DNA from: a virus
Reading direction: 5' to 3' (one strand)
Length of the DNA: 23,019 bases
IMG/VR virus record: IMGVR_UViG_3300009285_000829
Coordinates: 1 to 23,019 of that record
Shown piece after piece: positions 2-19,572 of the stretch (its first letter is position 1; the number at the start of each line of letters is the position of its first letter). Under the pieces are notes generated by a model. The model was not told the DNA's origin. It made no database searches and saw only the letters and a list, made by a program, of their open reading frames with translations. The position numbers and the translations under genes are program-made.

Positions 2-3000
2 AAAGGCGGGCACTTGATCCGTGAACGCCTGATTGAGGATGCCGGCCCTGCCACTGGTCCAGTCATTGGACGTACTCAATGGTCGCCGAAAGCCCCTTGG
101 TGGCCCGCTTTTGTACGGGACAAATCTGTGCGCATGGGGCCTGAAGAACTCCGTGCCGCCGTTGAAAAAGCTGCTACCGGCCAGCCTTTACGCGCCAAAG
201 AAGTCCGCGCTATTCGCTGGCTGTTGGATGAATCCACCAGACAAGTAGAGCCTGAGCAATACGCTGAGGAATCTTACACCGAAGATCCTTCCTGGTTGAC
301 CGAGTCCCAGACACCGATAGCCCTGGAACCCGGCGAAGAACGCGAGACCTTGGACTTGATGCACAAAGGTCTGCAAATGGGTCTGGACGCTGATATACTT
401 GAAGCTATCGTAGAACGTGCCGCGATACAGGAATTAAGCAATGACGACATCCTCCAACAGTTTGAAAATGCAGTCGCGCAGAAACGTGATCAAGAAGGCG
501 CTGCGGTTGTTCCGCCAGCAACGGAAACACGGGTACCAGCCGAAACCGCGCCAGAAGTAGACCTCTTTGGGCAAGATACACGTAGCGCGCAAGCCCTTGC
601 CGACCGTCAATCCGAAATAGACCGCAAACTCGGGAAAGACCGAGAAGCCGTACCCGCCGAATCCGCTGGAGACCTGTTTGATTCAGGTCGCGCCAAGCAA
701 ATCGATATTACGGAAGTTCCTGCTAGAATATCCCCCGCTAAACTGACTGAAAAAATTCAGTCGGAACAGGGGTATGTATATCACGCTACGAATGCTGATC
801 GCCTGGATGAAATCGCCACAACCGGAGAGCTAACCCCACACAGGCCGGATTACGGAACAGATCAGTTAGCTTGGCCCGATGGTTCGACTAAAAAACGAAG
901 TTACTTCAGTCGCAAGGCAGACATCGTATGGCAGTTTGCACCAGAAGACGGCAAGCCTGTAGTCATTAGAACGAAAGATGGAACTCATTTACAGACTGAA
1001 AGTACAGGAGATGTATTTTCTGGGAAACCAATCCCGTCGAGCGACCTTGAATATCTTGGTGAAGATGGGGCATGGCATCCTCTGGCAACAACGCAACAAG
1101 TTCTACCACGGCCTACCCAGGAACCGGATATCAATGCTTGGCGGAAAGACCGGTCCCCTGAATACCTGCAAGCCTACGATGCTTTCACACAGGTATCACG
1201 GGAACACGATGCAGTAACTGCGAAGTTTCGCAACAAGGAAGTAGGCTCCAAAGAGTTCCTGCTCTCCAAAGGCAGGCTCAATAAAGCCATGCAAGCCATG
1301 GATGAGGCAGAGCAGGCGGAAAAGAACGCGCCAGTACAATCTAAGCAAGTAGTACCGGATGGCCAACGTAGAGCCAAATGGAGGTCTCTCGGGAGAGATG
1401 TATCTATTGCATTACCATACAATGCCTCACGCTTCAAACCACAACCAAAAGATTTTATTGAGGCCGCAGGCAATCTTGGTATTACTCCAGCAGATGCTGC
1501 TACAGCATGGCGTATCTATGATGATAATCAGGGTGATATCGCTATCCCGAAGCGACGTAGTCCGCGTCCACTGATTACAGAGGCACAAAGAGAAGCATCT
1601 ATAGCCGCTGCACTGTCAACTGCAGCCACTCAAAAGAAGCCTTGGCAGTTGACAAAAGGAGAGTGGATAAATGCTGCTAGGAATTCTTTTGTACATCAGA
1701 AAGGTAAGCGCCGTTTGTTCCTGTCCTGGGACAACGAAATGCACCAGATTAAAGATCAATCCAACGGGAAATTAACCAAGCCAGTAGATGAGGTATTAAC
1801 TGATATCCATCGTGCCCTTGTGCAACAGCACATAGAACAACGCCGCCGCGACACGGTAGATGCGGAATCAGCCCCATATCCAGGTTTACGTGATATGGCA
1901 AAAGGCAGACTGGAGCGTCCGACCGAGTTTTATCCTACCGATGAAGTCCTCGCTGATTATCCTGAATTAAAGAAACCGGAACCGCCTACTGCCGCGCTTG
2001 TTGCTGAGAGCACACAAGCGCCTGCCGAGAAACCAGAGCGATACGCTGTAGGCAAGTCCCTCACTAAAGACCAACGTAACAAGGTTCTCAGTACCTTGGT
2101 AGATGTATACCAACTCAAAGGTGCGCCAACAGAATCAAAGGGTTTCGATCAGGAAGGTGCTGAAATATTCGGATATGTCTATTCCCCTGACCTATTTGAA
2201 AAATCGTCCATCACTGGCGCTGGGTTGCGGTACATTGTAACCCTCCCGGATGGGCGTATCGCACACCCGAGCGAATTATTCCCGGACTACACCCAGTCAG
2301 ATATTGATCGCGTCATGGCTGAGAGAAAGTACGCTGAACAGCAAGCGAAATTGGGAAGAGAAGATCGGATCCGCATACTCAACAATCGAAAAGCTGGTGA
2401 TATGAACACCGCGAATAGTATTTTCTGGAAACAGAATGCGGCTGTGGTCGATAAGATAAAACCAGAAGATACCTCCCTACTCACGGATGGGAAGCAGTAT
2501 ATCCGTGTGCTCAAACAGACGGCGGATAAAGACCTCACGATCCTTGGTGGAGAATGGGCAATCAATGCGCCCGTAACACCGGAACCAGGAGAGAGTAGCG
2601 TTGCGCCTACTCAGGACGGCGGATTGTTGGGCGGTTTAACGTTGTCTGAGGGGCTAAGGGCAGTCGAATTAAACAAAATAGTCGATAGCGGCGAGCAACT
2701 TACTCCAGACGAAACGGAGGAATTAAGACTTCTGAAAGAGAAGTACAATTCCAAACCAGAGCCATCCCCAGACCCCATGACCGCCGCCGCTACCAAGATG
2801 TCGGAAGCAGCGGATAAGCTGACGGCTGCGGCAGAGAAGCTGTCGAATGTGCAGGCGGCCAAGGAAACAGCAGAGGCTAAACCAAGCACTCCGATCACAA
2901 AGCATCTGGATGTCATGAGCCGCCTATCCAATAGGCAGGTAACGATTGACGAGTTCAAGCAGTCTTTTTCTGATCTGATATCGGCAGACCGCGCAACAAT

Positions 3001-6000
3001 CATCGAACAACTTTCTGACTACAAGAAAGCCGAGTTGTTGGAGATGGGTGGATGGGGCTTCACCAATCGTTATAAATCCGAGAAAAAGGACCGGATCGCC
3101 GACAGTCTGTACGTGAATTTTATCGAGGATTATGTGATCGATGGCAACGGTATTTCCTTCATGCTGGGGAGTGGTGATTACACGCAGAAGGTTATACAAG
3201 CTGTATCCACCAAGGTGGACGCCTACACGCAGCAGGATCTGGATGATTACGCAGCGAAGTACGCCAAGGGCAAAGAAGAACGCCAAGCGGCTATGGAAGA
3301 AGCCAAGGCAGGAATGGAGAACCCACAGACCACCGAGGATTACCGCAGGATAATCAATGCTCTTGCCAAAGAGAAAGACATCAAGACGTTTGCCGAAGCC
3401 AGGAAGTTACTGCCCTTGGAGCAGCGGATCCACTTCGATGAATTGGTAGCGCAGGAAACTCGTGAAAAGCGTACCGCCAATCAGTCCGATAAAAAGACGG
3501 GAATCAGAACGTCTGCACAGAAAGTATCTGGCGGGATTATCGAGACCAAGCATACCAAGAAAGGCCATGATTTGTTTGTGGTGCAACTCTCGGATCGGGT
3601 CTCCCGGGAGGATTACAATGCCCTCAATACTTCAGCGAAGCGCATGGGCGGGTATTATTCCTCTTTCCGTGGTGGTGACGCTATCCCAGGGTTCCAATTT
3701 ACTGAACGCCCACAGGCGGAAGCCTTCCAGAAGTTGGTCGCAGGCGACACTACGGAAGCGGAAAAGATAGCCGATGAACGCCGATCCGCTTTTGATGACA
3801 ACCGGGCGCAGACCTCAGTGGAGCGGTTGCGCTCTATGGCGGATGCCCTGGATGAGAAAGCCGATAATTCCCTTTTAGCAAGCCGCCAAACCAATACCGC
3901 CAGACGTGCGGCAATGGCATCCAGGGCAGAATCCTCAGCGAACCAGGACAAAGCTATGGCGCAGACCATGCGCAATATTGCCGATGGTATTGAAAGCGGG
4001 AACTTGAAGTATCTTGACCAGGTGCGCCAAAAGACTCAGGTGGAGATGCTGAACAGTATCATTGGCTCTGCTCATTACGATGAATTGAGGGAGACCTACA
4101 AGGATTACTCCGAGTATGAGAAAAACAAGGATCGTCCGCCGACCAACAACACCGTGGAATATGCCAAGTTTCCGAGTTACACCGCCTGGCGCGGAGACCT
4201 TGCCAAGCTGGGCCGACAACTGGTCGAGATGGACGGCTATAAGCAACTCGGGACCAAGCTGTTAAAACTGGCGGATGATGTATCGAGGGAATACGAGACA
4301 TTCGCCAAGGATAACTTGCAGAAAGTTTCTACCTTCGCCAAGCAGGACGGTGGTGCGGCGATTTTCACTACGCAAGACAAGGCCATGGAGGCTATTGCCC
4401 GATCCGGTTTCCGTGGTACCGCCATTCCTTTGCAGATCAAGCGTGGCCAGTACATGATCGTACTCAGTCCAGCGGAATCCACCAAGAAAGGGATCTGGCC
4501 AGGGGCAGAGGACAAGCAAATTACCCTGCCAACGGATCTTGGCGAGCAGTTGCTGGAGAAGGCTTCCCGGGCGAACAGGCAAAGGGTCAAGGTGGATATC
4601 CCGTGGCAACTGGAGTCAGCGCACGAGAAACGTACCCGCCTTAAAGGGATGAACATCGAGACTCCAGCAGAGTTCCGGTCTGCTTTGCGTGAATATGTCT
4701 CTATCCGTAATGCACCCAAAGAGCCGGACAGAATCAAGGCCATGGAACGCGCCATGGTTGGTCGATCGAAAGACGGGATGGACTTCTTCCCGACGCCAGA
4801 GAGCATTGCCAATGAAATGGTAGATACCGCCGACATTAAGGAAGGGATGGCCGTGCTGGAGCCTTCCGCTGGCATGGGTCACATTGCGGATGCGATCAGG
4901 GGTCAAGGCATTGAGCCTGATGTGATCGAGTTATCCAGTAGCCGCAGGGAGTTGCTGGAAGCCAAGGGGTACAACGTGGTTGGTAATAACTTCCTGGAGT
5001 TCACTGGCCAGTACGATAGGATCTTAATGAACCCTCCTTTCTCTGATCGGAGAGACGCGGCGCATATTCGACATGCTTATTTCCTACTCAAGCCGGGCGG
5101 GCGACTGGTTACAATCGCTGGAGAGGGCGTATTTTTCGGCAGTGACAAGAATGCACAGGAGTTCCGTGATTGGCTGGAGAGTGTTGGCGCCACCGATGAG
5201 AAATTAGCAGAAGGCGCCTTCATGGACAAGGATCTTCCTGTGAATACAGGCGTCAATGCCAGGATGATCGTAATTGAAAAGCCCGATCAAGGCGTGGCGA
5301 TGTTCTCGCTTGATTTGTCGCGCTTAGACGACAAGGCGACCTTATTCACCAAAGCCCAAGCCGAGGCCGCCATTGCCCAAGCCAGAAAGGGTGTCTCCGA
5401 CACCCTGGGCCTGCAAATCAATGTCATTGAATCTGCTGGAATACCCACTGAAGTTAAAGCCCAGATACCGGCCGGCAAGATACCCAAAGGCTTTGTCTAT
5501 CAAGGCCAGGTCTATCTGGTGGCGGATGCCATGAATAACGCCAGGGATGCGCAAGTTCAGTTCGCCCACGAGGTTATCGGACATGTCGGCATGGAAGCCA
5601 TCATGGGGACGGAACGCTGGCAGGCTTTGTTGCAACGCTTCACTGGACTCAAGAAGATTGGCGGTAAGGAGTTCCAGTCCCTCCTGGAAGAGGTCCACAG
5701 CCGCTATGCCGATCGGAAAGGGAATATCGACCCTGTAAAGGAGATGAAGGAATTCATCGCTCTGGCGGAAGAATCCCGGGAGCAGGCCGGGGCTGTGGCT
5801 ACTTTCTTACGCCAAGTCCGTGAGTTCCTGGCGAAAGCCCTCCGTGCCCTGGGCTTCAAGCAGCCGTTCTCCATGACGCAAATTCATGAGCTATTGTCGT
5901 CATCCGAGCAATACTTGAAACAAGGAGAGAGACAGGCACAGCCAGAGATGGCACCGGCTTTTTCGCAAGGCAATATCAGAGATACGCAACGTGCAGAGCA

Positions 6001-9000
6001 AGCGGCGTTCGATGCCGCAAATAAGGAATTACGGCGAGGCAGCGAGTTTGATGTCGAGGAAGAGATCCGTTCTATCGAAACAAGTGGCAGCATTGACTTA
6101 TCTGATCTGGCAGAAAATCCAGAATTCTGGAACGCAGAGGACGAAGATTTCACCGACGCAGGAAGAGACGAAGCAATACGCCGAACGAGAGAGATGGCAG
6201 AGCAGCGTGTTGGTTACGCCCCCGTTACATCACTGGATGAATTGAACGGTAAAAATCAATCAGTACAGGCCGAGGCTTTCCATGCCTATGCGGATGGTCT
6301 TGGCCTCAATTCAAAGAAAAGCTTCTCTGCTGGCGGAAGCCGGTATGTTGAAATCTCTTTCTCTGATGGAAAGACGGTAAAGTACCGGTTCGCAAATCAT
6401 TACAATACTGTTCGCGACACAGGGATGCAGCCGGATGTGAATGTTGCGCCTGGCGGGGTGGATTTTACAGATGCGATAGATTCACTGCTTAACCAATCAA
6501 CCTCTTTCTCCAACAGTGAACGCAACACCACCTTCTATTCCCAACTCCTGAAGACCATCCAGGAAGCGACTCAAGCCAAAGCCACTCCGCAGCAATGGGA
6601 AGCGTTATTCCAGAAGTCTGGTGTAAAGCAGGAAGAGATTGATTGGCTGGATGTAAAAGGTTTCTTCTCCGGTAAGCCGACTGTCTCAAAGAGCGATCTA
6701 GCCGAGTACGTGGCCGCGCACCAGGTGGAAGTGAAGGAGGGAGTGAAACAAGATACTGGTGATTGGGTTGTGTACGACGGCGAAGCAAATCAATACTTTG
6801 CTTCCAGGCAGCAGGCCGAGGAATACGCACGAGAGCAGGGGATAGATATCACGAGTGACTCTGTATTTGTGTCGCCCGATACGAAAGAGACCCACTTCGC
6901 CCAATACCAACTTCCGGGCGGATCCAATTACAGGGAGGTGTTGCTGACGTTGCCAAAACGTGAAGCAAAATCAATGGTTGATGTAATCAAAGGGAATTAT
7001 GCGAATTTCCAATCATCCCACTTCGATGAACCAAATATTTTGAGTCATGTAAGATTTAACGAAAGGGTTGATTCAGAAAATAATAAAGTTCTCTTCATAG
7101 AAGAGTTGCAAAGTGACTGGAGCGCAGCTGGCAGGAAAAAAGGATTTACCCCAGCAGATCATGTTGGTGAATTTACCGACGCACAAAGGGAAGAGGCGAA
7201 CCAGTATTACGATATTCGTCCAGAGGTCTGGGAAAAACTGTCCATCGAAGCGCGTGATTCTTATGTGCTGGAGATGAGGGAGACCCAAGGCAAACGTGCC
7301 GTACCAAGAGCCCCATTCGTCACCAAGACCCAAACTTGGGCACTTTTGGCAATGAAGCAAATGATACGCTACGCCGCTGAAAACGGATTTGAAAGAATCG
7401 CATGGACCACAGGAACTCAACAGATAGAACGTTATTGGGGAAACCAGACAATATCAGACGCTGTTGACAGGTTTAAGAAAGTTACCGAGCCACAAAGCGT
7501 TCGGGAACTCTCGCAGAATATCTTTGGCGCAGAAATGTCGGCCTTGATGCCTTTCGATATTGTGGATGGTGGTATGTTGGGATCGCTTAACAACGATAAG
7601 GTTAAGAGGATCGTTGTTTCCGATCTTCCCGTCGATGTGGTGAACATTCTCAGAGATAAGCAGCTTTCTGCCAATCAGATTTTCAGTGATCCTGAGATGG
7701 TCACGGCGCGTCTTTCCGTTGATGGTCGTCGCAGGGTGGCTGATGGCATTCTCAGTTCTATGCGCGACACCGGCGCAACGATAAGAACAAAACTTAGCGA
7801 CCTTCACCTTGGAGGGGGGGAGATACTTCTTTTCCCCGCATTGAGGGCAAGTGATCTCAATTCTAGTGAAGTTGCTGGCATTATAGCTCCGAGCGCCATC
7901 TTTCATCTTGGGCCCAGTATTAGCCCACAAGAAGCTGCTGCGGCAGGAGCGACCGCAAAATCTCTTTCTCATGAGGAGAGAAGGTTTTTTGGCGAAAAGT
8001 TCAGTCCCGCAAAATTCGCAGAATTTTTGAATGCTCATGCAGAGATTATACACGGTCAAGCAGGGCTTTTAAAGCACGGTTTTGAGGCCCCTCCACATGA
8101 AGGCATGAAAGCCTTCTACGACACCATGCTCCCGAACATCGTGAATAAATATGTGAAGAAGTGGGGGGCGAAGGTTGGTCCCGCCAAAATCAGCGGGGCT
8201 AAGGTTGAGATCACAAAGCAATCAAGTGGAAAATATCATGTTGCTACTGATAGTGAAGTGCTTGGTGTTTTTGATTCCTTGCAGGAAGCAGAGTCCGCAG
8301 CCGGGAAGTCTACAGTTCCATCCTTCGACATCACCCCCTCTATGCGCTCTTCCGTGCTTCAGGGCCAGCCATTGTTCTCCCAAATCAAGCAAACCGACTC
8401 ACCTGCTTTCAAGGCATGGTTTAAGGATTCCGTCGTTACCGTAGATGGTAAGCCAGGGAGTGAACCGCTTACCGTTTATCATGGCACATACGCTGAAGAT
8501 ATCACAGAATTTGACCCTGATTTAGCTGGGCAGTCTGGATTTGGTAGCGCTGCCGGTGGTATGGAATTTACTTCTTCTCAGTATGTTGCATCACATTACG
8601 CTGGGGCGAGCGAGCAGTATATAAACCTTGGTTATGAAGCGGGCAATGTAATGCCTGTATTTTTGAAAATACAAAAGCCTTTCGTTGTGACGGCAGATAT
8701 GCACGAAGGACAATTTGAGGTTGCCCATAGGTACGGTAATGAGATTAAACATCTAATAGAGGGGGAATTAACTATAGATGATTTGAGAGAATATGGAACA
8801 GATTCTAATCTGGTTAATGTCAATTTATTAATTGACGCTTGGGATAAACAAGGCGGCATTGATGGGATTATTATTGAAGATGCTTCATGGGACGCAGACG
8901 ATAGTGATCTCAATACTCAATATATCGCCTTCCGCCCAGAGCAAATTAAGAGCGCCACCGGTAATCGCGGCACCTTCTCCCCCACGGATCCAGATATCCT

Positions 9001-11803
9001 GTTCTCACTCGCAGATCGCGATCCGCCGTATGTGAGACGGTTGAAAGGAGAACAGGCCCAGATTGAAGAAGAATTGCTGCCGGCAGACGCGATGAGCAAA
9101 CTCGGTCTGTCCGAAACACAAGGCAACTCCCTGAAAGATAAAATCAGTAATCTGACCTATGCGGACCTCAAGTCAAACACAAATACCTATGCCAAGCGTG
9201 CCTACGAGGGCATCTTTGATGGCTTGATTGGGATCTTTCGAGCCGAGGAAGAAGTTGGCGGGGTTGCCCCAGAGAAGAGCGGGTACATTGGTGCGAGAAT
9301 GTCCACCAGCGTATCTGACTTGATGACGGCCGTATTAAAGTACGGGGCCCCAGAATGGCGTGACGGCGGGATCCAACACAAGGAAGGCACGATTGGCTTG
9401 ATGGATATCGTCCAAGACCTGGGGGCTGATTTACCGGCTTGGCTGGGATGGATGGCCGGCAACCGGGCAAAGCTCCTGAAGGGGCAGGGCCGGGAGCAGA
9501 ATCTGACGGATACGGATATTCAATGGTTGCTGGACCAGTCCCAGGGTAAGGAAGATAAGTTCCAGACCGCCAAGCAGGAATACAACAAGCTCAACCAGTC
9601 GATGCTGGACTTTGCCGAAGTCGCTGGTGAGATTGACCCGGGGTCCCGAAAGAAATGGGAATCGGATTGGTATGTCCCGTTCTATCGCGCCACTGAAGAA
9701 GATGTTTTGTTGGCGCCGCATACCAAGCGCGGGCTCTCTCACCAGTCCGCCGGCATCAAGGCGTTGCGTGGTGGGAAGTTACCGACCAATAACCTGCTTG
9801 AGAACATCCTGACGAACTGGGTCAAATTGACAGATAGCGCCACCAAGAATATGGCCCTGTTGAAAACCGTGGATAATCTGAAAGACACCCGGTTCCTCAC
9901 GGATGAAACCATGAAGTACAAGCAAGTCATCGTACCGAAATCCGAGATTGTGAAGCGCATCAAGGCAGATCGTGTTTACACGGAAATGGTTGCGGACATG
10001 CTGGGGATAATGCAGACGGATGCCTTATTGCCGTCAGCCTTGGAAGTCAAGGTTTTGCATGAGTTGGCTACGCTGGACAGAAGTGGTTTTGAAAAACTGT
10101 GGTCTATCGTGGCACCCACGGATAAAGACGTGATCCGGGTCATGCGTGGTGGCAAATATGAATACTACCGAGTCCATGATGCCGCTCTCCTGCGAGCCGT
10201 GTCACACCTTGGCTTCACTGGATTCAATGATCCAGTCACCAAGTCTATGCGCTGGTTCAAACGACTCTTGACCACTGGCGTCACCACTTCCCCTGACTTC
10301 ATGTTCCGCAACTTTGTCCGGGATGCAGCGCATGCCTGGGCGATCAACAAAGACGGATTCACGTTCGGAAAGGATTCGATAACCGGGCTCACCGCGGCCT
10401 TGCGTGAAGATGAGGATTTCCGGGCCTTGATGTTTGAGATGGGATCCTTCCAAGGTGGGTATGTGCATGGCACAGATCCGGAGGCCAATGCCCAAATCAT
10501 TCAGCGAACTCTGCAAGCCAAAGGACTCCAGGGCGCGGGATTGGATCTACATATGCGTTCCATCCTAAATACCCCGAAAAAGCTCTGGGATGCCGTCGAA
10601 TTTGGTTGGCAGAAGTATCGAGGACTGGGCGACAAGATCGAAAATTCCAACAGACTGGCCACCTACAAGCGGGCACTGGAAGCCGGGAAACACCCCGTCC
10701 AAGCCGCCTTTGAAGCGAAAGACCAGATGGACTATAACCGTCGCGGCAACTGGCAGGCTTTGATGTGGTTCACCGATGTAGTGCCGTTCCTGAATGCCAG
10801 ACTCCAGGGCACGGAAAAACTCTATCGTGCCGCCAAACAGGAAGGCAAACTGTCCCGTGTGTTCGCTATTAAATTCGCCAAAATTGCCACGTTCTCAGTG
10901 ATACTGACCATGCTGAATGATGATGATGACGATTACAAAGAATTACCAGACTGGGAGAAAGATGCTTACTGGCACTTCTGGATCGCTGATCAACATTTTC
11001 GGATCCCGAAACCCTTTGAAATCGGGATCCTGGCCGGCACCATCCCGGAGCGCATGTACCATGCCTGGGTGACGGGCTCCCAGCCGAATGAGAAATTACT
11101 CTGGTCGCTCAAGCATAACCTGTTCCAGACCTTGAATTTCAATCCTGTCCCGCAAATCGCGGTACCTGCTATTGAAGTCTGGGGCAACCGGTCGTTCTAC
11201 TTCGACACGCCTATTGAGGGCATGGCCGATCAGAATAAGTTACCAGAGGCACGGTTTAACGAGCGCACCACCGAGATCGCCAAGGGTTTCGGGGCCTGGC
11301 TGGGGGTATCGCCAAAGCAACTTGAACACCTATGGGAAGGGTATACAGGAACCATGGGGGCGTATATTCTGGCTGCGGCTGATATGGCGGCTAGACGTAT
11401 GCTAGACGCCCCTGGGCGGGCCTCTATGGAGCCAAGCCAAGTCATCGGCTTGAAAAGCTTCTACCGAGGCAGTGGGCCTGTCTACAGCACACAATACGAA
11501 ACCGACCTGTACGATGCACTGGAAGAGGTCAACCAAATCTATTCCACCATTACCGCCTACCAACGTGATGGGCTCATTGATCAGTCCAAGACAATGAGGT
11601 TAGCAGGGAAGGAAAAATTGAAGTACCGGGCTCGACTCAGACATGCCAGCGAACGGATCAACATATTACGGAAACAGATAGCCCAGACGCAACGCAGCAG
11701 GATCCTGTCTCCAGACTCTAAGCGGGAGAAGATTGACCAGTTATTGACCAAGAAAAACGAGATCGCTAAGCGTACCGCGGAATCAGTAGAGGAGGCTTTT
11801 TAA
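2..11803 (+). CDS. Giant phage polyvalent protein (ART, DNA methyltransferase, metallopeptidase, LPD38), 5' partial
   Basis: The frame is open to the left window edge. A TTG at 14 behind a purine-rich AAGGCGGG could be a start, but the gene probably begins further left. Residues are counted from that TTG (3929 aa). Visible domains in order: ART-like (YHAT, H257); LPD-like segment about 1196-1245 (GGYYSSFRGGD); N6-adenine methyltransferase about 1590-1760 (SAM motif EPSAGMG, catalytic NPPF at 1673-1676); metallopeptidase-like domain with HEVIGH at 1852-1857; LPD-type domain with SHFDEPN (about 2336), IEELQSDW and WTTGTQQIERY (to about 2475), resuming at GMKAFYD (about 2697); second ART domain about 2790-3000 (YHGT, H2823; ends in the typical FRPEQIKSATGNRGTF); LPD38-like C-terminus from about 3000. 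Family knowledge: such proteins are delivered with phage or plasmid DNA and act against host defences. Delivery here is inferred. The segment at about 2477-2690 is antisense to an HNH gene. Confidence 0.9.
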   Translation, partial: KGGHLIRERLIEDAGPATGPVIGRTQWSPKAPWWPAFVRDKSVRMGPEELRAAVEKAATGQPLRAKEVRAIRWLLDESTRQVEPEQYAEESYTEDPSWLTESQTPIALEPGEERETLDLMHKGLQMGLDADILEAIVERAAIQELSNDDILQQFENAVAQKRDQEGAAVVPPATETRVPAETAPEVDLFGQDTRSAQALADRQSEIDRKLGKDREAVPAESAGDLFDSGRAKQIDITEVPARISPAKLTEKIQSEQGYVYHATNADRLDEIATTGELTPHRPDYGTDQLAWPDGSTKKRSYFSRKADIVWQFAPEDGKPVVIRTKDGTHLQTESTGDVFSGKPIPSSDLEYLGEDGAWHPLATTQQVLPRPTQEPDINAWRKDRSPEYLQAYDAFTQVSREHDAVTAKFRNKEVGSKEFLLSKGRLNKAMQAMDEAEQAEKNAPVQSKQVVPDGQRRAKWRSLGRDVSIALPYNASRFKPQPKDFIEAAGNLGITPADAATAWRIYDDNQGDIAIPKRRSPRPLITEAQREASIAAALSTAATQKKPWQLTKGEWINAARNSFVHQKGKRRLFLSWDNEMHQIKDQSNGKLTKPVDEVLTDIHRALVQQHIEQRRRDTVDAESAPYPGLRDMAKGRLERPTEFYPTDEVLADYPELKKPEPPTAALVAESTQAPAEKPERYAVGKSLTKDQRNKVLSTLVDVYQLKGAPTESKGFDQEGAEIFGYVYSPDLFEKSSITGAGLRYIVTLPDGRIAHPSELFPDYTQSDIDRVMAERKYAEQQAKLGREDRIRILNNRKAGDMNTANSIFWKQNAAVVDKIKPEDTSLLTDGKQYIRVLKQTADKDLTILGGEWAINAPVTPEPGESSVAPTQDGGLLGGLTLSEGLRAVELNKIVDSGEQLTPDETEELRLLKEKYNSKPEPSPDPMTAAATKMSEAADKLTAAAEKLSNVQAAKETAEAKPSTPITKHLDVMSRLSNRQVTIDEFKQSFSDLISADRATIIEQLSDYKKAELLEMGGWGFTNRYKSEKKDRIADSLYVNFIEDYVIDGNGISFMLGSGDYTQKVIQAVSTKVDAYTQQDLDDYAAKYAKGKEERQAAMEEAKAGMENPQTTEDYRRIINALAKEKDIKTFAEARKLLPLEQRIHFDELVAQETREKRTANQSDKKTGIRTSAQKVSGGIIETKHTKKGHDLFVVQLSDRVSREDYNALNTSAKRMGGYYSSFRGGDAIPGFQFTERPQAEAFQKLVAGDTTEAEKIADERRSAFDDNRAQTSVERLRSMADALDEKADNSLLASRQTNTARRAAMASRAESSANQDKAMAQTMRNIADGIESGNLKYLDQVRQKTQVEMLNSIIGSAHYDELRETYKDYSEYEKNKDRPPTNNTVEYAKFPSYTAWRGDLAKLGRQLVEMDGYKQLGTKLLKLADDVSREYETFAKDNLQKVSTFAKQDGGAAIFTTQDKAMEAIARSGFRGTAIPLQIKRGQYMIVLSPAESTKKGIWPGAEDKQITLPTDLGEQLLEKASRANRQRVKVDIPWQLESAHEKRTRLKGMNIETPAEFRSALREYVSIRNAPKEPDRIKAMERAMVGRSKDGMDFFPTPESIANEMVDTADIKEGMAVLEPSAGMGHIADAIRGQGIEPDVIELSSSRRELLEAKGYNVVGNNFLEFTGQYDRILMNPPFSDRRDAAHIRHAYFLLKPGGRLVTIAGEGVFFGSDKNAQEFRDWLESVGATDEKLAEGAFMDKDLPVNTGVNARMIVIEKPDQGVAMFSLDLSRLDDKATLFTKAQAEAAIAQARKGVSDTLGLQINVIESAGIPTEVKAQIPAGKIPKGFVYQGQVYLVADAMNNARDAQVQFAHEVIGHVGMEAIMGTERWQALLQRFTGLKKIGGKEFQSLLEEVHSRYADRKGNIDPVKEMKEFIALAEESREQAGAVATFLRQVREFLAKALRALGFKQPFSMTQIHELLSSSEQYLKQGERQAQPEMAPAFSQGNIRDTQRAEQAAFDAANKELRRGSEFDVEEEIRSIETSGSIDLSDLAENPEFWNAEDEDFTDAGRDEAIRRTREMAEQRVGYAPVTSLDELNGKNQSVQAEAFHAYADGLGLNSKKSFSAGGSRYVEISFSDGKTVKYRFANHYNTVRDTGMQPDVNVAPGGVDFTDAIDSLLNQSTSFSNSERNTTFYSQLLKTIQEATQAKATPQQWEALFQKSGVKQEEIDWLDVKGFFSGKPTVSKSDLAEYVAAHQVEVKEGVKQDTGDWVVYDGEANQYFASRQQAEEYAREQGIDITSDSVFVSPDTKETHFAQYQLPGGSNYREVLLTLPKREAKSMVDVIKGNYANFQSSHFDEPNILSHVRFNERVDSENNKVLFIEELQSDWSAAGRKKGFTPADHVGEFTDAQREEANQYYDIRPEVWEKLSIEARDSYVLEMRETQGKRAVPRAPFVTKTQTWALLAMKQMIRYAAENGFERIAWTTGTQQIERYWGNQTISDAVDRFKKVTEPQSVRELSQNIFGAEMSALMPFDIVDGGMLGSLNNDKVKRIVVSDLPVDVVNILRDKQLSANQIFSDPEMVTARLSVDGRRRVADGILSSMRDTGATIRTKLSDLHLGGGEILLFPALRASDLNSSEVAGIIAPSAIFHLGPSISPQEAAAAGATAKSLSHEERRFFGEKFSPAKFAEFLNAHAEIIHGQAGLLKHGFEAPPHEGMKAFYDTMLPNIVNKYVKKWGAKVGPAKISGAKVEITKQSSGKYHVATDSEVLGVFDSLQEAESAAGKSTVPSFDITPSMRSSVLQGQPLFSQIKQTDSPAFKAWFKDSVVTVDGKPGSEPLTVYHGTYAEDITEFDPDLAGQSGFGSAAGGMEFTSSQYVASHYAGASEQYINLGYEAGNVMPVFLKIQKPFVVTADMHEGQFEVAHRYGNEIKHLIEGELTIDDLREYGTDSNLVNVNLLIDAWDKQGGIDGIIIEDASWDADDSDLNTQYIAFRPEQIKSATGNRGTFSPTDPDILFSLADRDPPYVRRLKGEQAQIEEELLPADAMSKLGLSETQGNSLKDKISNLTYADLKSNTNTYAKRAYEGIFDGLIGIFRAEEEVGGVAPEKSGYIGARMSTSVSDLMTAVLKYGAPEWRDGGIQHKEGTIGLMDIVQDLGADLPAWLGWMAGNRAKLLKGQGREQNLTDTDIQWLLDQSQGKEDKFQTAKQEYNKLNQSMLDFAEVAGEIDPGSRKKWESDWYVPFYRATEEDVLLAPHTKRGLSHQSAGIKALRGGKLPTNNLLENILTNWVKLTDSATKNMALLKTVDNLKDTRFLTDETMKYKQVIVPKSEIVKRIKADRVYTEMVADMLGIMQTDALLPSALEVKVLHELATLDRSGFEKLWSIVAPTDKDVIRVMRGGKYEYYRVHDAALLRAVSHLGFTGFNDPVTKSMRWFKRLLTTGVTTSPDFMFRNFVRDAAHAWAINKDGFTFGKDSITGLTAALREDEDFRALMFEMGSFQGGYVHGTDPEANAQIIQRTLQAKGLQGAGLDLHMRSILNTPKKLWDAVEFGWQKYRGLGDKIENSNRLATYKRALEAGKHPVQAAFEAKDQMDYNRRGNWQALMWFTDVVPFLNARLQGTEKLYRAAKQEGKLSRVFAIKFAKIATFSVILTMLNDDDDDYKELPDWEKDAYWHFWIADQHFRIPKPFEIGILAGTIPERMYHAWVTGSQPNEKLLWSLKHNLFQTLNFNPVPQIAVPAIEVWGNRSFYFDTPIEGMADQNKLPEARFNERTTEIAKGFGAWLGVSPKQLEHLWEGYTGTMGAYILAAADMAARRMLDAPGRASMEPSQVIGLKSFYRGSGPVYSTQYETDLYDALEEVNQIYSTITAYQRDGLIDQSKTMRLAGKEKLKYRARLRHASERINILRKQIAQTQRSRILSPDSKREKIDQLLTKKNEIAKRTAESVEEAF
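7454..8038 (-). CDS. HNH homing endonuclease, nested antisense in the giant gene
   Basis: 194-residue protein. Two Cys4 modules come first (C7, C10, C28, C32 and C64, C67, C84, C88), likely zinc-binding and DNA-contacting. They are followed by a canonical HNH nuclease motif at 132-159: VHHIDGK (H133, H134), NNDPLNL (N141, N142) and H155/H159. These residues make a DNA-nicking or cutting role secure at family level. Free-standing HNH genes of this type are homing endonucleases that spread into related phages. The ATG at 8038 is preferred. A TTG at 8057-8059 in the same frame is possible but lies inside a TTGACC stretch upstream of the TATAAT. No Shine-Dalgarno is seen; a perfect TATAAT lies 6 nt before the ATG. 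The gene is codon-for-codon in register with the sense frame of the giant gene, which has no stop across it. Confidence 0.87.
   Translation of the reverse strand: MSIQKFCEFCGTELFAKKPSLLMRKRFCGRSCRSSFLWANTGPKMKDGARSYNASNFTRIEITCPQCGEKKYLPPSKVKVAKFCSYRCAGVAHRTENAISHPATTINGKTRRDHLRITENLIGRKLLISENVHHIDGKIGNNDPLNLIVVKRSQHTTIHNIERHQGRHFCAKDILREFPNALWLGNFLKPVNSV
8045..8050 (-). promoter_or_regulatory. Possible -10 element for the antisense HNH gene
   Basis: A perfect TATAAT on the minus strand sits 6 nt upstream of the HNH start codon. A TTTAAA lies 17 nt further upstream (4 of 6 matches to a -35). If used, transcription would start at or next to the ATG and give a leaderless message, which fits the lack of a ribosome binding site. 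It lies inside coding sequence of the giant gene, so it could be chance. Confidence 0.35.
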
Positions 11804-12423: not shown

Positions 12424-12641
12424 TTCGGCACCTTACGCCCTTCCAAGGCTTGAATTGTCTGGTTCAGGAGGATCAGTTTATCCCTGGCTGTCTCAATATC
12501 CTCCAGCACTTTAAGTATCGAGACAGGCAAGCCGTTGAGATGGTACATCAGCCCGCGCCCGTCTACCGTCAATCGTGCCGGGTGCGTCCTAACCACTTCC
12601 GCGCTCAGTTCTTTCAATGCTTCCAATTCACTCGTTTTCAT
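12420..12641 (-). CDS. Small hypothetical protein
   Basis: 73 residues with a strong Shine-Dalgarno (GAGGAGGAAC just before the ATG at 12641). It is mostly helical and charged, with a predicted coiled-coil-like C-terminal half (KVLEDIETARDKLILLNQTI). There are no cysteine motifs, signal peptide or membrane segment. The stop overlaps the lipoprotein start by 4 nt. The ribosome binding site and tight packing support a real gene; the function is not recognised. Confidence 0.7.
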   Translation of the reverse strand: MKTSELEALKELSAEVVRTHPARLTVDGRGLMYHLNGLPVSILKVLEDIETARDKLILLNQTIQALEGRKVPK

Positions 12642-12650
12642 TGTTCCTCC

Positions 12651-13040
12651 TCAATAGATAATTCCTGATGGCACTTGAAGCAAGTTTTCGATTCCATGTT
12701 CAGATAACAACATTCCTAGAATGGAAATACCACTAAAAACGAACGGAATGTCATCTTCCACAAAATCATCTGTTACGTGATTCGCCTGCGGTTTCTGCTC
12801 AGGTTTCTTCACGTCCTCATCCTTGCCTTGCGGTTTCCACGTATTAATCTCCGCGTACCACTTCCCGTCTTTTGATACTTTCACGTCCAGGTTAATCCAT
12901 CCCTCAGACTGGCTTGCTAGATATGCCGCTACCTCAGCCCGTTTCAACGAGATTTTGCACTTCACATAATCCGGCGCTTTCTCGTGCGGCGGCTTGACGT
13001 ACAGGCCGGGAATGAATTGTTTGTCAGTCATAGCATCCAT
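12651..13040 (-). CDS. Small recombination-cluster protein with internal SSB-like acidic motif
   Basis: 129 residues from ATG 13040, which has AGGA 6 nt upstream. An in-frame ATG at 13031 is also possible. Residues 1-75 form a compact domain (FIPGLYVKPPHEKAPDYVKC, then WINLDVKVSKDGKWYAEINTWKP) resembling small phage proteins often found beside annealing proteins and exonucleases (from memory). A Lys/Gln-rich linker follows, then FVEDDIPF. That motif resembles the extreme C-terminal tail of bacterial single-strand binding proteins, but here about 30 more, partly hydrophobic residues follow it. Its start overlaps the coiled-coil gene upstream. A role in the recombination module is inferred from position. 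Confidence 0.75.
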   Translation of the reverse strand: MDAMTDKQFIPGLYVKPPHEKAPDYVKCKISLKRAEVAAYLASQSEGWINLDVKVSKDGKWYAEINTWKPQGKDEDVKKPEQKPQANHVTDDFVEDDIPFVFSGISILGMLLSEHGIENLLQVPSGIIY

Positions 13041-18245: not shown

Positions 18246-18298
18246 AACTCACCGCCGCCGCTTTCTTTATTATCGGCTGGATTTGCGATCATGGTTGA
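18242..18298 (+). CDS. Possible 18-residue micro-ORF
   Basis: ATG at 18242 overlaps the upstream stop (ATGA) and encodes MKLTAAAFFIIGWICDHG. It is hydrophobic with a Lys at the N-terminus, like a tiny membrane peptide or a truncated membrane gene. Its end overlaps the -35 of the next promoter. The 4-nt coupling used throughout this operon is the only support. Confidence 0.3.
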   Translation: MKLTAAAFFIIGWICDHG

Positions 18299-18323
18299 CT
18301 TACCTGGTATGGTAAACTATGCT
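18295..18323 (+). promoter_or_regulatory. Internal sigma70-type promoter
   Basis: TTGACT (18295-18300, 5 of 6) and TATGCT (18318-18323, 4 of 6) with the optimal 17-nt spacing. The predicted start is near 18330, at the base of the long inverted repeat that ends in a T-run. It drives either a short RNA or an attenuated transcript into the GIY-YIG gene. Confidence 0.6.
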
Positions 18324-18326
18324 CTT

Positions 18327-18393
18327 AGCTACCGATGGGACAAGCGCCAGCCTTCTGATGCTGATACCATCGGATTACCATCGGTAGCTTTTT
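18327..18393 (+). ncRNA. Candidate small structured RNA or attenuator leader
   Basis: AGCTACCGATGG (18327-18338) and CCATCGGTAGCT (18378-18389) are a perfect 12-bp inverted repeat around a 39-nt loop, directly followed by T5. Inside the loop, CAGC...GCTG can form a small hairpin. The 3' arm is partly duplicated: TACCATCGG occurs at 18365-18373 and 18376-18384, so the 5' arm can pair with either copy. With the promoter ending at 18323, a transcript of about 64 nt starting at the stem and stopping at the T-run is predicted. No match to a known RNA family is recognised. Confidence 0.5.
18378..18393 (+). terminator. Rho-independent terminator-like end
   Basis: The 3' arm of the 12-bp stem followed by TTTTT (18389-18393). 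The loop is long, but the stem is perfect and GC-containing. Read-through would be needed for upstream promoters to reach the replication genes. Confidence 0.5.
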
Positions 18394-18416
18394 AACTCGT
18401 ATCAGGAGTTTCGTAA

Positions 18417-18761
18417 ATGAAAAACTGGATTGTCGTTTCTTGGAAGAACTTTATTCTCCCCCCAAAATCCGCTGTATATGCTGTATATATTGGTGGGAAA
18501 CTAACATACATCGGACAATCAGTAGATATCCGTAATAGGTTCTATGAACACAATATCAGATATGGATATGCAAAAAATATCATCACTCCGTGGGGCGATT
18601 ACCCAGATGATTCAACCATAACAATCAAGTACAGTTTATCAAAAAAATATGGTGACTGGGCCATGCGTGAGTTACGGTTAATCAGGAGATTAAGGCCACC
18701 CCTCAATAAATCAGGGAAAGGGCGAAAGTCCTTAATAAAAAATTCCTATGGAAGAGAATAA
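18417..18761 (+). CDS. Free-standing GIY-YIG endonuclease
   Basis: 114 residues with AGGAG before the ATG. The GIY-YIG core is at the N-terminus: AVYAVYIGGKLTYIGQS (19-35; Tyr21 and Y31-I-G33), then DIRNRFYEH (37-45, Arg39/Arg41) and the catalytic Glu85 in MRELRLIRRLRPPLN (83-97, Asn97). Only the nuclease domain is present, with no DNA-binding extension, as in small phage homing nucleases. It is AT-rich compared with its neighbours and lies directly after the promoter/terminator element, ahead of the replication genes, so it may be a mobile insertion. Confidence 0.85.
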   Translation: MKNWIVVSWKNFILPPKSAVYAVYIGGKLTYIGQSVDIRNRFYEHNIRYGYAKNIITPWGDYPDDSTITIKYSLSKKYGDWAMRELRLIRRLRPPLNKSGKGRKSLIKNSYGRE

Positions 18762-18762
18762 C

Positions 18763-19572
18763 ATGGCAAAATGTGATGTTTGGATGCCACTGTATATTGG
18801 TGATTATTTGTCCAATACTTCCAGATTAACCACCGAACAACATGGTGCGTATATGTTGCTTATTATGGATTATTGGGTAAATGGGAGAATACCTGACGAT
18901 GACCAGTCATTAGCAAATATCACTCGTTTACCAATGGATAGATGGCTTGGTATAAAGAGTGCAATATCAAAATATTTTACTATCTCAAATGGGGAATGGG
19001 TACAGGAACGCATTGAAGCAGAAAAAGAAAAGGCAGAATACCTATCAAAAGTGAGGGCTGTAGCTGGCAGCAAAGGGGGTAGCAAAACTCAAGCAAACAT
19101 AACAGCAAATATCAATCATAGCTTAACACCTTCACCTTCACCTTCACCTTCAGAATTACCTTCAGAAGAGAGCGTTGCGGGCAAGCCGCCCCCTAGACCT
19201 AAGTTTCAAAAACCTTCAAAGCGTAAAAAATTGTCAAATAATGTCATTGACAGTCAATTACAATCAGCAATGTCAACACATACAGATACAGATACAGATA
19301 CAAAAAAAGATATTGGTCATTTTGACCTATTCTGGTCTTTATATCCTCGAAAGGTAAAAAGAAAGGAGTCTCAGAAAGTTTGGTCATCGCGTAAACTTGA
19401 TAGCCACGTTGAGACCATCACTGCGGACATCAAAAACAGAATCAAGAACCACAAACAATGGGTTGAGGGATTTATTCCCCACCCAACGACCTACCTACGT
19501 GGAGAATTATGGAATGACGCCATTGAGCCAGCAGGAAGGCAGGCTGTAGATCCATTCAAGGGGGCGCAATGA
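18763..19572 (+). CDS. DUF1376-type replication initiator protein
   Basis: 269 residues from ATG 18763 (GGAAGAG upstream; another ATG 5 codons earlier overlaps the GIY-YIG stop). The N-terminal DUF1376 domain (MPLYIGDYLSNTSRLTTEQH, GAYMLLIMDYW, GRIPDDD; about 8-65) is winged-helix-like. A low-complexity linker follows (TPSPSPSPS and THTDTDTDT). The C-terminal domain (FDLFWSLYPRKVKRKESQKVW ... PHPTTYLRGELWND) is the form found at the end of lambda O-like initiators. Role: origin binding and helicase loading, by family and by its place just before the primase and helicase genes. The linker DNA contains repeats that may be the origin. Confidence 0.82.
   Translation: MAKCDVWMPLYIGDYLSNTSRLTTEQHGAYMLLIMDYWVNGRIPDDDQSLANITRLPMDRWLGIKSAISKYFTISNGEWVQERIEAEKEKAEYLSKVRAVAGSKGGSKTQANITANINHSLTPSPSPSPSELPSEESVAGKPPPRPKFQKPSKRKKLSNNVIDSQLQSAMSTHTDTDTDTKKDIGHFDLFWSLYPRKVKRKESQKVWSSRKLDSHVETITADIKNRIKNHKQWVEGFIPHPTTYLRGELWNDAIEPAGRQAVDPFKGAQ
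19128..19301. repeat. Short tandem repeats and TGTCA motifs in the initiator linker
   Basis: Four tandem copies of a TTCACC hexamer (about 19128-19153) and about four copies of AGATAC (about 19278-19301) flank an AT-rich stretch. That stretch has TGTCA at 19232, 19242 and 19271, and the palindrome TGTCATTGACA at 19242-19252. The hexamers encode Ser-Pro and Thr-Asp runs. The position inside an initiator gene resembles the lambda ori arrangement. Confidence 0.5.

Follow-up and report, generated by a model that had tools for sequence, protein, structure and literature searches.

A homing-type HNH endonuclease gene has probably been tolerated as an in-frame antisense insert in a loop or expendable module of a giant modular phage protein, which is encoded in the window analyzed here (the whole stretch of 23,019 nucleotides of the IMG/VR virus record IMGVR_UViG_3300009285_000829). 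Two proteins, one on each strand, appear to be encoded by the same piece of DNA. Where codons face each other exactly, TTA, CTA, and TCA are the only ones that close the other strand, and all of them can be avoided without changing the nuclease. The chances are about even that such genes represent a distinct class of homing element, placed antisense and codon-for-codon, with synonymous codons adapted to keep the host ORF open, in which both the nuclease and a sense peptide of about 200 residues are selected and which recurs among phage polyvalent genes in three or more HNH lineages.

The giant ORF of the window is assigned to the phage polyvalent proteins because it carries ART-PolyVal and LPD38 domains (Table 1). 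A preliminary description of this DNA had placed a complete two-zinc-module HNH nuclease on the minus strand of a still-open giant gene, in exactly opposed frames and with none of its 15 leucines and 13 serines (counted from the ATG) encoded by TTA, CTA, or TCA. All of this was borne out. The HNH gene (7454–8038 from the ATG, or 7454–8059 from an upstream TTG) lies within the ORF at 2–11803, its codons stand precisely opposite the host codons and a recount of leucine and serine codons gave the same figures. The protein possesses both the HNH active-site motif, with an intact core, and two Cys4 zinc modules, and is matched by PHROG HNH families (best 4.5e-16). Its match to Pfam HNH_3 (1.3e-4) narrowly misses the curated cut-off, which is cleared by the homologous HNH protein of contig L207 (3e-9). 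The extension to the TTG is probably not used, since the homologues in contigs L002 and L207 start at ATG.

Table 1. Features of the giant host ORF and the nested HNH gene in the window.
Feature	Position	Strand	Remarks
Host gene, polyvalent-protein ORF, 3933 aa	2..11803	+	Enters at the window's left end; frame uninterrupted across the HNH gene
ART-PolyVal domain of the host protein	8462..8977	+	Pfam 5.9e-23; same frame, downstream of the insert
LPD38 domain of the host protein	10925..11419	+	Pfam 3.1e-42; same frame
Antisense HNH endonuclease gene, 194 aa from ATG	7454..8038	-	Stop at 7454-7456; no TTA, CTA, or TCA
Upstream extension of the HNH ORF to TTG	8039..8059	-	Probably not used
First Cys4 zinc-binding module (HNH protein C7, C10, C28, C32)	7943..8020	-	Cysteines common to window, L002, and L207
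Second Cys4 zinc-binding module (HNH protein C64, C67, C84, C88)	7775..7849	-	
HNH core, H133 to H159 (HHIDG...NN...NL...H)	7562..7642	-	Intact
Host-protein segment found only with the HNH gene	7441..8102	+	Alignment with empty-site relatives
Candidate promoter, TTTAAA-17 nt-TATAAT	8045..8073	-	Ends 6 nt before the HNH ATG; consensus match only

Some 80 viral contigs sharing the host domain were retrieved with the host motif GGEGMK[GA]FYD, and the 19 closest HNH-free contigs were aligned with the window and L002. The approximately 80 HNH-free relatives join the block GKExAxKI through a short spacer to the block SGLDLKVGGEGMK[AG]FYD and the insert is absent from them; no trace of the sense segment was found, either in the alignment of the 19 closest or among the ~80 contigs. 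Since neither the HNH gene nor the sense segment is present in these relatives of the host domain, the two together constitute an insertion. HNH-free relatives that conserve the sense segment, which the preliminary description had set against its own proposal, were looked for among the ~80 and none was encountered, so that the proposed insertion into a gene that stays open holds. In L002 the insert is placed exactly between the two conserved blocks. In the window the sense segment takes the place of a short DLSKQ...GKExAxKI...SGLDLKVGGE stretch of the HNH-free relatives and the junction is less tidy than in L002, the host residues from DLSKQ to GKExAxKI on the left of the insert being missing and about 40 host-domain residues beside it having been lost. 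Both flanks of the window insert are homologous to single uninterrupted ORFs (e.g., those of L013 and L026) and therefore represent two sides of one gene. Occupied and empty forms of the host site both exist, and the occupied form is rare: of the ~80 polyvalent loci retrieved with the host motif, just two (the window and L002) have an antisense HNH gene. No relative of the window locus was found by a DNA-level search of a phage collection, profile scans built on the two sequences recovered only L002 from viral contigs and gave no hit among genome contigs, and a search with the ART-PolyVal family reached no informative genome. Besides L002, a scan with a C-terminal motif returned two genome stretches that did not turn out to be relatives.

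The L002 contig (IMGVR_UViG_3300011416_000292) was fetched by HNH protein similarity alone and not by the openness of its host frame. Its HNH protein (L002a) is 56% identical to that of the window, and the gene is antisense, in the same opposed register and at the homologous host site of a giant ORF of 2849 aa that is open throughout. A second HNH gene in this ORF (L002b, L002:2912-3592) is likewise antisense, in register and devoid of forbidden codons. Four more contigs with the same layout emerged when viral contigs were scanned with a generic HNH pattern to obtain a control set (157 HNH ORFs in 259 loci): L188, with two HNH genes antisense in one ORF of 1451 aa, and L207, L250, and L192, with antisense HNH genes in ORFs of 1381, 2436, and 1026 aa, respectively. 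The total of antisense, opposed-register nested HNH genes thus amounts to at least eight in six contigs, including the window, and the host ORF remains open past the insert in the other contigs as well. Hosts with a recognized domain are polyvalent proteins (ART-PolyVal, LPD38, or ddrB-ParB domains): polyvalent-protein domains are present in the hosts of L207 and L250, the L188 host displays the polyvalent TPAFKAWF motif, and a domain search of the L192 host ORF gave no recognized domain. Host domains are not always preserved, since the window has lost the ~40 residues mentioned above and one L188 insert has taken the place of most of an ART domain. The antisense HNH insert at L188:493-987 occupies the expected place of the ART-PolyVal core, between TPAFKAWFGS and GIGNRGTLDQNNPNILFS, and the ART core is apparently lost.

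Among the 269 leucine and serine codons of the eight nested HNH genes (counted from the longest ORF starts) there are no TTA, CTA, or TCA codons. For the window case by itself this is only mildly unusual, the probability of zero forbidden codons being 6e-3 when codons are drawn at the frequencies of its giant gene and 2e-3 with a GC-matched HNH baseline; that more than chance is involved follows from the repetition of the layout by eight HNH genes in six contigs and not from the single window case. The joint probability for the eight genes, ~10^-22.7 with a GC-matched baseline of 107 non-nested HNH genes, needs to be discounted because six of the eight were recognized through their open host ORF and their zero counts are partly ascertained. 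The unbiased part is provided by L002, in which the probability of no forbidden codon is 0.017 and 0.0022 for its two HNH genes with the usage of its own giant gene. In L192 58% of the host leucine codons are TTA or CTA, and its HNH gene uses these in none of 10 leucines and TCA in none of 20 serines (P=3e-8 for both together). A general compositional avoidance of these codons, which the preliminary description had named as an objection to its proposal, was also examined, and GC-matched HNH homologues located elsewhere do use them. The suggested selection for an insertion that spares its host gene is favored by the recurrence of the same register and openness, including in the contig found by HNH similarity alone; the register by itself is weak evidence for it, being the one most readily left open.

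Conservation of the host frame was assessed by shuffling synonymous codons within each HNH gene, with both HNH proteins and the codon usage kept. The host-frame similarity of the window and L002 exceeds the expectation from such shuffles with z=4.9, the highest value among 103 HNH pairs; the host-only coding flanks of the two giants are saturated (z<1.1), and among 735 non-nested control pairs of less than 50% identity z=2 is reached by 4.8%. All 12 within-clade nested pairs are positive. Once third-position identity has been regressed out, their mean lies 1.8 residual sd above 1113 control pairs, compared with 0.16 for the 15 nested pairs between clades (pairs share sequences and are not independent). 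When five alternative frames were tested, the excess of third-position conservation was strongest in the opposed frame and was also raised in frame same1. Host-frame conservation was consequently dropped as clean evidence of dual coding, and part of the excess may reflect residual shared ancestry or another constraint, because it also appears in frame same1. As a test for overlapping genes the comparison gives a within-clade host-frame excess with partial frame specificity on a small sample, and this conservation within HNH clades is suggestive of dual coding. Between the window and L002 the HNH proteins are 56% identical vs. 36% for the adjoining host segment, which is consistent with mobility of the nuclease gene and could also be produced by a different constraint.

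Random insertion followed by survivorship, in which only the rare inserts that leave the host frame open persist and no continuing codon selection operates, is an unlikely explanation of these data. It draws on the fact that in non-nested phage HNH genes the opposed frame is the sole alternative frame ever open (4 of 107, vs. 0 of 107 for each of the others), so that this register is expected for a non-disruptive insertion with or without selection, and on the recognition of most nested cases by their openness. Against it, the HNH proteins of the window and L002 differ at 44% of their residues and their synonymous sites have diverged, yet both genes leave the host frame open although L002 was not selected for openness; the avoidance of forbidden codons in L192 and the host-frame conservation within clades speak in the same direction.

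The remaining alternatives concern the nature of the insert and of its host. HNH genes often live in introns and inteins, and L171, L217, L248, and L281 offer examples of inteins whose HNH gene is antisense or out of frame, but that the insert is itself an intron spliced from the host RNA, or an intein spliced from the host protein, with the HNH as its endonuclease, is very unlikely: no Rfam intron model matches at E<=1 across positions 6800–8800, intein splice blocks (leading Cys or Ser, terminal His-Asn) are absent at the insert in both the window and L002, unlike in L171 (Pfam Intein_splicing 3.7e-11), and for an intron an open host frame would be needless. The loss of neighboring host residues in the window and of the ART domain in L188 would fit a giant gene that is already functionally broken (a decaying module or a dead phage gene), in which an open frame has no consequence. 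This is highly improbable given that hundreds of downstream codons are open and recognizable, including the ART-PolyVal and LPD38 domains of the window, and that host ORFs are open beyond the insert in other contigs too. It is extremely improbable that the sense segment is an authentic host domain on which the antisense HNH is secondary or was overprinted later; the host frame is indeed conserved beyond expectation, but the HNH belongs to large, widespread families with free-standing relatives, the sense segment occurs in no HNH-free relative and, in structural models, a confident fold is obtained for the HNH reading but not for the sense reading. The predicted model of the window HNH protein has a mean pLDDT of 85, and in the predicted model of the host domain with its insert the flanking core reaches about 85–96 and the insert about 27–47. 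A fold search of the PDB with the HNH model gave no significant match.

Mapped on a tree of 138 HNH domains, nested-antisense placement requires 4 changes, compared with at least 6 (mean 7.9) when the labels are shuffled, which suggests a few lineages with a lasting habit of antisense nesting. A smaller tree separates, with moderate support, a group of the window, L002a, L207, and L192, a group of L188a, L188b, and L002b with the intergenic L141 and L201, and L250. The free-standing relatives L141 and L201 are positioned between genes. Promoter and Shine-Dalgarno matches provide candidate expression signals for the nested genes. The promoter-like sequence of the window (Table 1) is one of the two top-scoring sites of the region (the other has the same -10 and a shifted -35), L002a has the consensus match TTTACA-17-TAGAAT at the same distance before its ATG, and L207 shows only TATGAT at the corresponding spot, without a -35-like box. 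No Shine-Dalgarno sequence precedes the HNH ATG in the window, L002a, or L207 and their mRNAs may for this reason be leaderless; in L002b and L188b consensus matches of the GGAGG and AAGGAG types occur before the ATG.

In the reading preferred here, that of a tolerated antisense insert, the nuclease would be expressed from a promoter of its own on the other strand and would cut phage genomes carrying the empty site, into which its gene would be copied by recombination repair (as proposed for the ShiLan element, see below). The host would survive with an insert that is a multiple of three and sited where the giant protein tolerates extra residues, synonymous leucine and serine codon choice alone being enough to keep the opposed register free of stops. 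Host translation would run through the insert, giving a peptide of ~200 residues, and selection would keep the ORF open and, weakly, the character of the sense peptide.

The nesting of an out-of-frame HNH gene within an open host gene is already published as the ShiLan element, a same-strand HNH gene in the third frame of phage N6/N4 DNA methylases (Arsenault, Gosselin and Gogarten, 2025; PMC11855218), and the antisense, in-register arrangement is a variant of it. Both consist of an HNH gene of ~195 codons placed in frame within a phage gene whose ORF remains open, both lack intron and intein features, are patchily distributed and are predicted to fold poorly in the host frame; a contrast like that of the structural models above was reported for the methylase insert of phage Pacc40 (PMC11855218). 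The ShiLan layout was also seen here in phage Bipolar, and the HNH lineages are related (43% identity, 9e-17, between L188b and the Bipolar HNH; 28%, 2e-6, between the window and ShiLan HNH). They differ in that ShiLan lies on the host strand, in methylases, and its HNH has been proposed to be translated from the host transcript (PMC11855218), whereas the HNH genes of the window, L002, L188, L207, L250, and L192 run antisense with their codons exactly opposed, within large genes that are polyvalent wherever a domain is recognized (the window site is not in a methylase domain), and an antisense HNH would need a transcript of its own. The word "antisense" is absent from the text of the ShiLan paper (PMC11855218), and no description of such a placement was found in the openly available journal literature. 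The homing strategy unlike introns and inteins that had been proposed for the window is neither of these by sequence, and is not wholly new given the ShiLan precedent.

Free-standing phage HNH homing endonucleases (PHROG 1271 and 15471; Pfam HNH_3) share the family, the zinc modules and the HNH core with the window protein but sit between genes or interrupt them, whereas the window HNH gene overlaps an uninterrupted host gene on the opposite strand. Inteins and group I introns that carry homing endonucleases are likewise selfish insertions inside a host gene, with presumed homing, and differ from the window insert, which has no splicing features and remains in the host reading frame. The host gene itself belongs to the polyvalent proteins of phages and conjugative elements (ART-PolyVal, LPD38, ddrB-ParB), whose definition covers the host only and has no part for a nested antisense HNH gene.

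Introns and inteins spare the host gene by splicing. ShiLan is an unspliced homing gene hidden in another frame of the same strand, and the antisense cases are a third arrangement, which makes use of a feature of the genetic code, namely that the three closing codons are all synonymously avoidable. If selection on them is real, they would be long antisense dual-coding stretches (~200 codons) with a recognizable function on one strand. Gene callers that forbid overlaps would miss such nucleases in large phage ORFs or report the giant ORF only.

Other nested HNH genes were noted in the course of this work. Same-strand, out-of-frame HNH genes lie inside intein-ended ORFs at L149:4986-5582, L155:1910-2545, L157:1856-2488, L172:3174-3806, L184:1328-1921, L221:10662-11255 and 12438-12971, L226:6611-7132, L228:2100-2675, L143:2523-3068, and L257:3508-4047. 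As these ORFs have a leading Cys and a terminal His-Asn or Ser-Asn-Cys, the endonuclease overlaps the intein and is not fused to it, and HNH-overlapping inteins look common in phages. The same-strand nested HNH genes of the control sample, mostly within inteins, were not counted as the arrangement of the window. Inteins with an antisense HNH gene occur at L171:6553-7281 (opposed register), L217:1290-1859 and L248:4679-5338 (both shifted by one), and in the terminase large subunit of the cultured Pectobacterium phage Ymer (L281:906-3170, with the antisense HNH-like ORF at L281:2249-2974). For polyvalent genes, by contrast, no isolate carrying an antisense HNH gene was encountered. The HNH reading of the latter is without annotation in Ymer, and near-identical host proteins are found in Pectobacterium phages Abuela, Sabo, Amona, Koroua, Pappous, and Taid and in Dickeya phage Setonix.

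Methylase genes also host nested HNH genes. Cylindrospermopsis phage Cr-LKS3 has a ShiLan-type, same-strand, out-of-frame HNH in an N6/N4 methylase (L262:1480-3330) and, being a cyanophage, represents a case outside the actinobacteriophages. At L196:1044-1667 an HNH gene is nested on the same strand in a cytosine methylase ORF, and at L198:7449-8060 one lies antisense, in another register, in a DNA methyltransferase-like ORF; both host ORFs are open. The window itself contains a further small endonuclease-like gene at 18417–18761 (+) (PHROG endonuclease, 8.5e-6), which looks like a GIY-YIG domain and lies beside replication genes within an AT-richer stretch (GC down to 0.38, 18250–19250).
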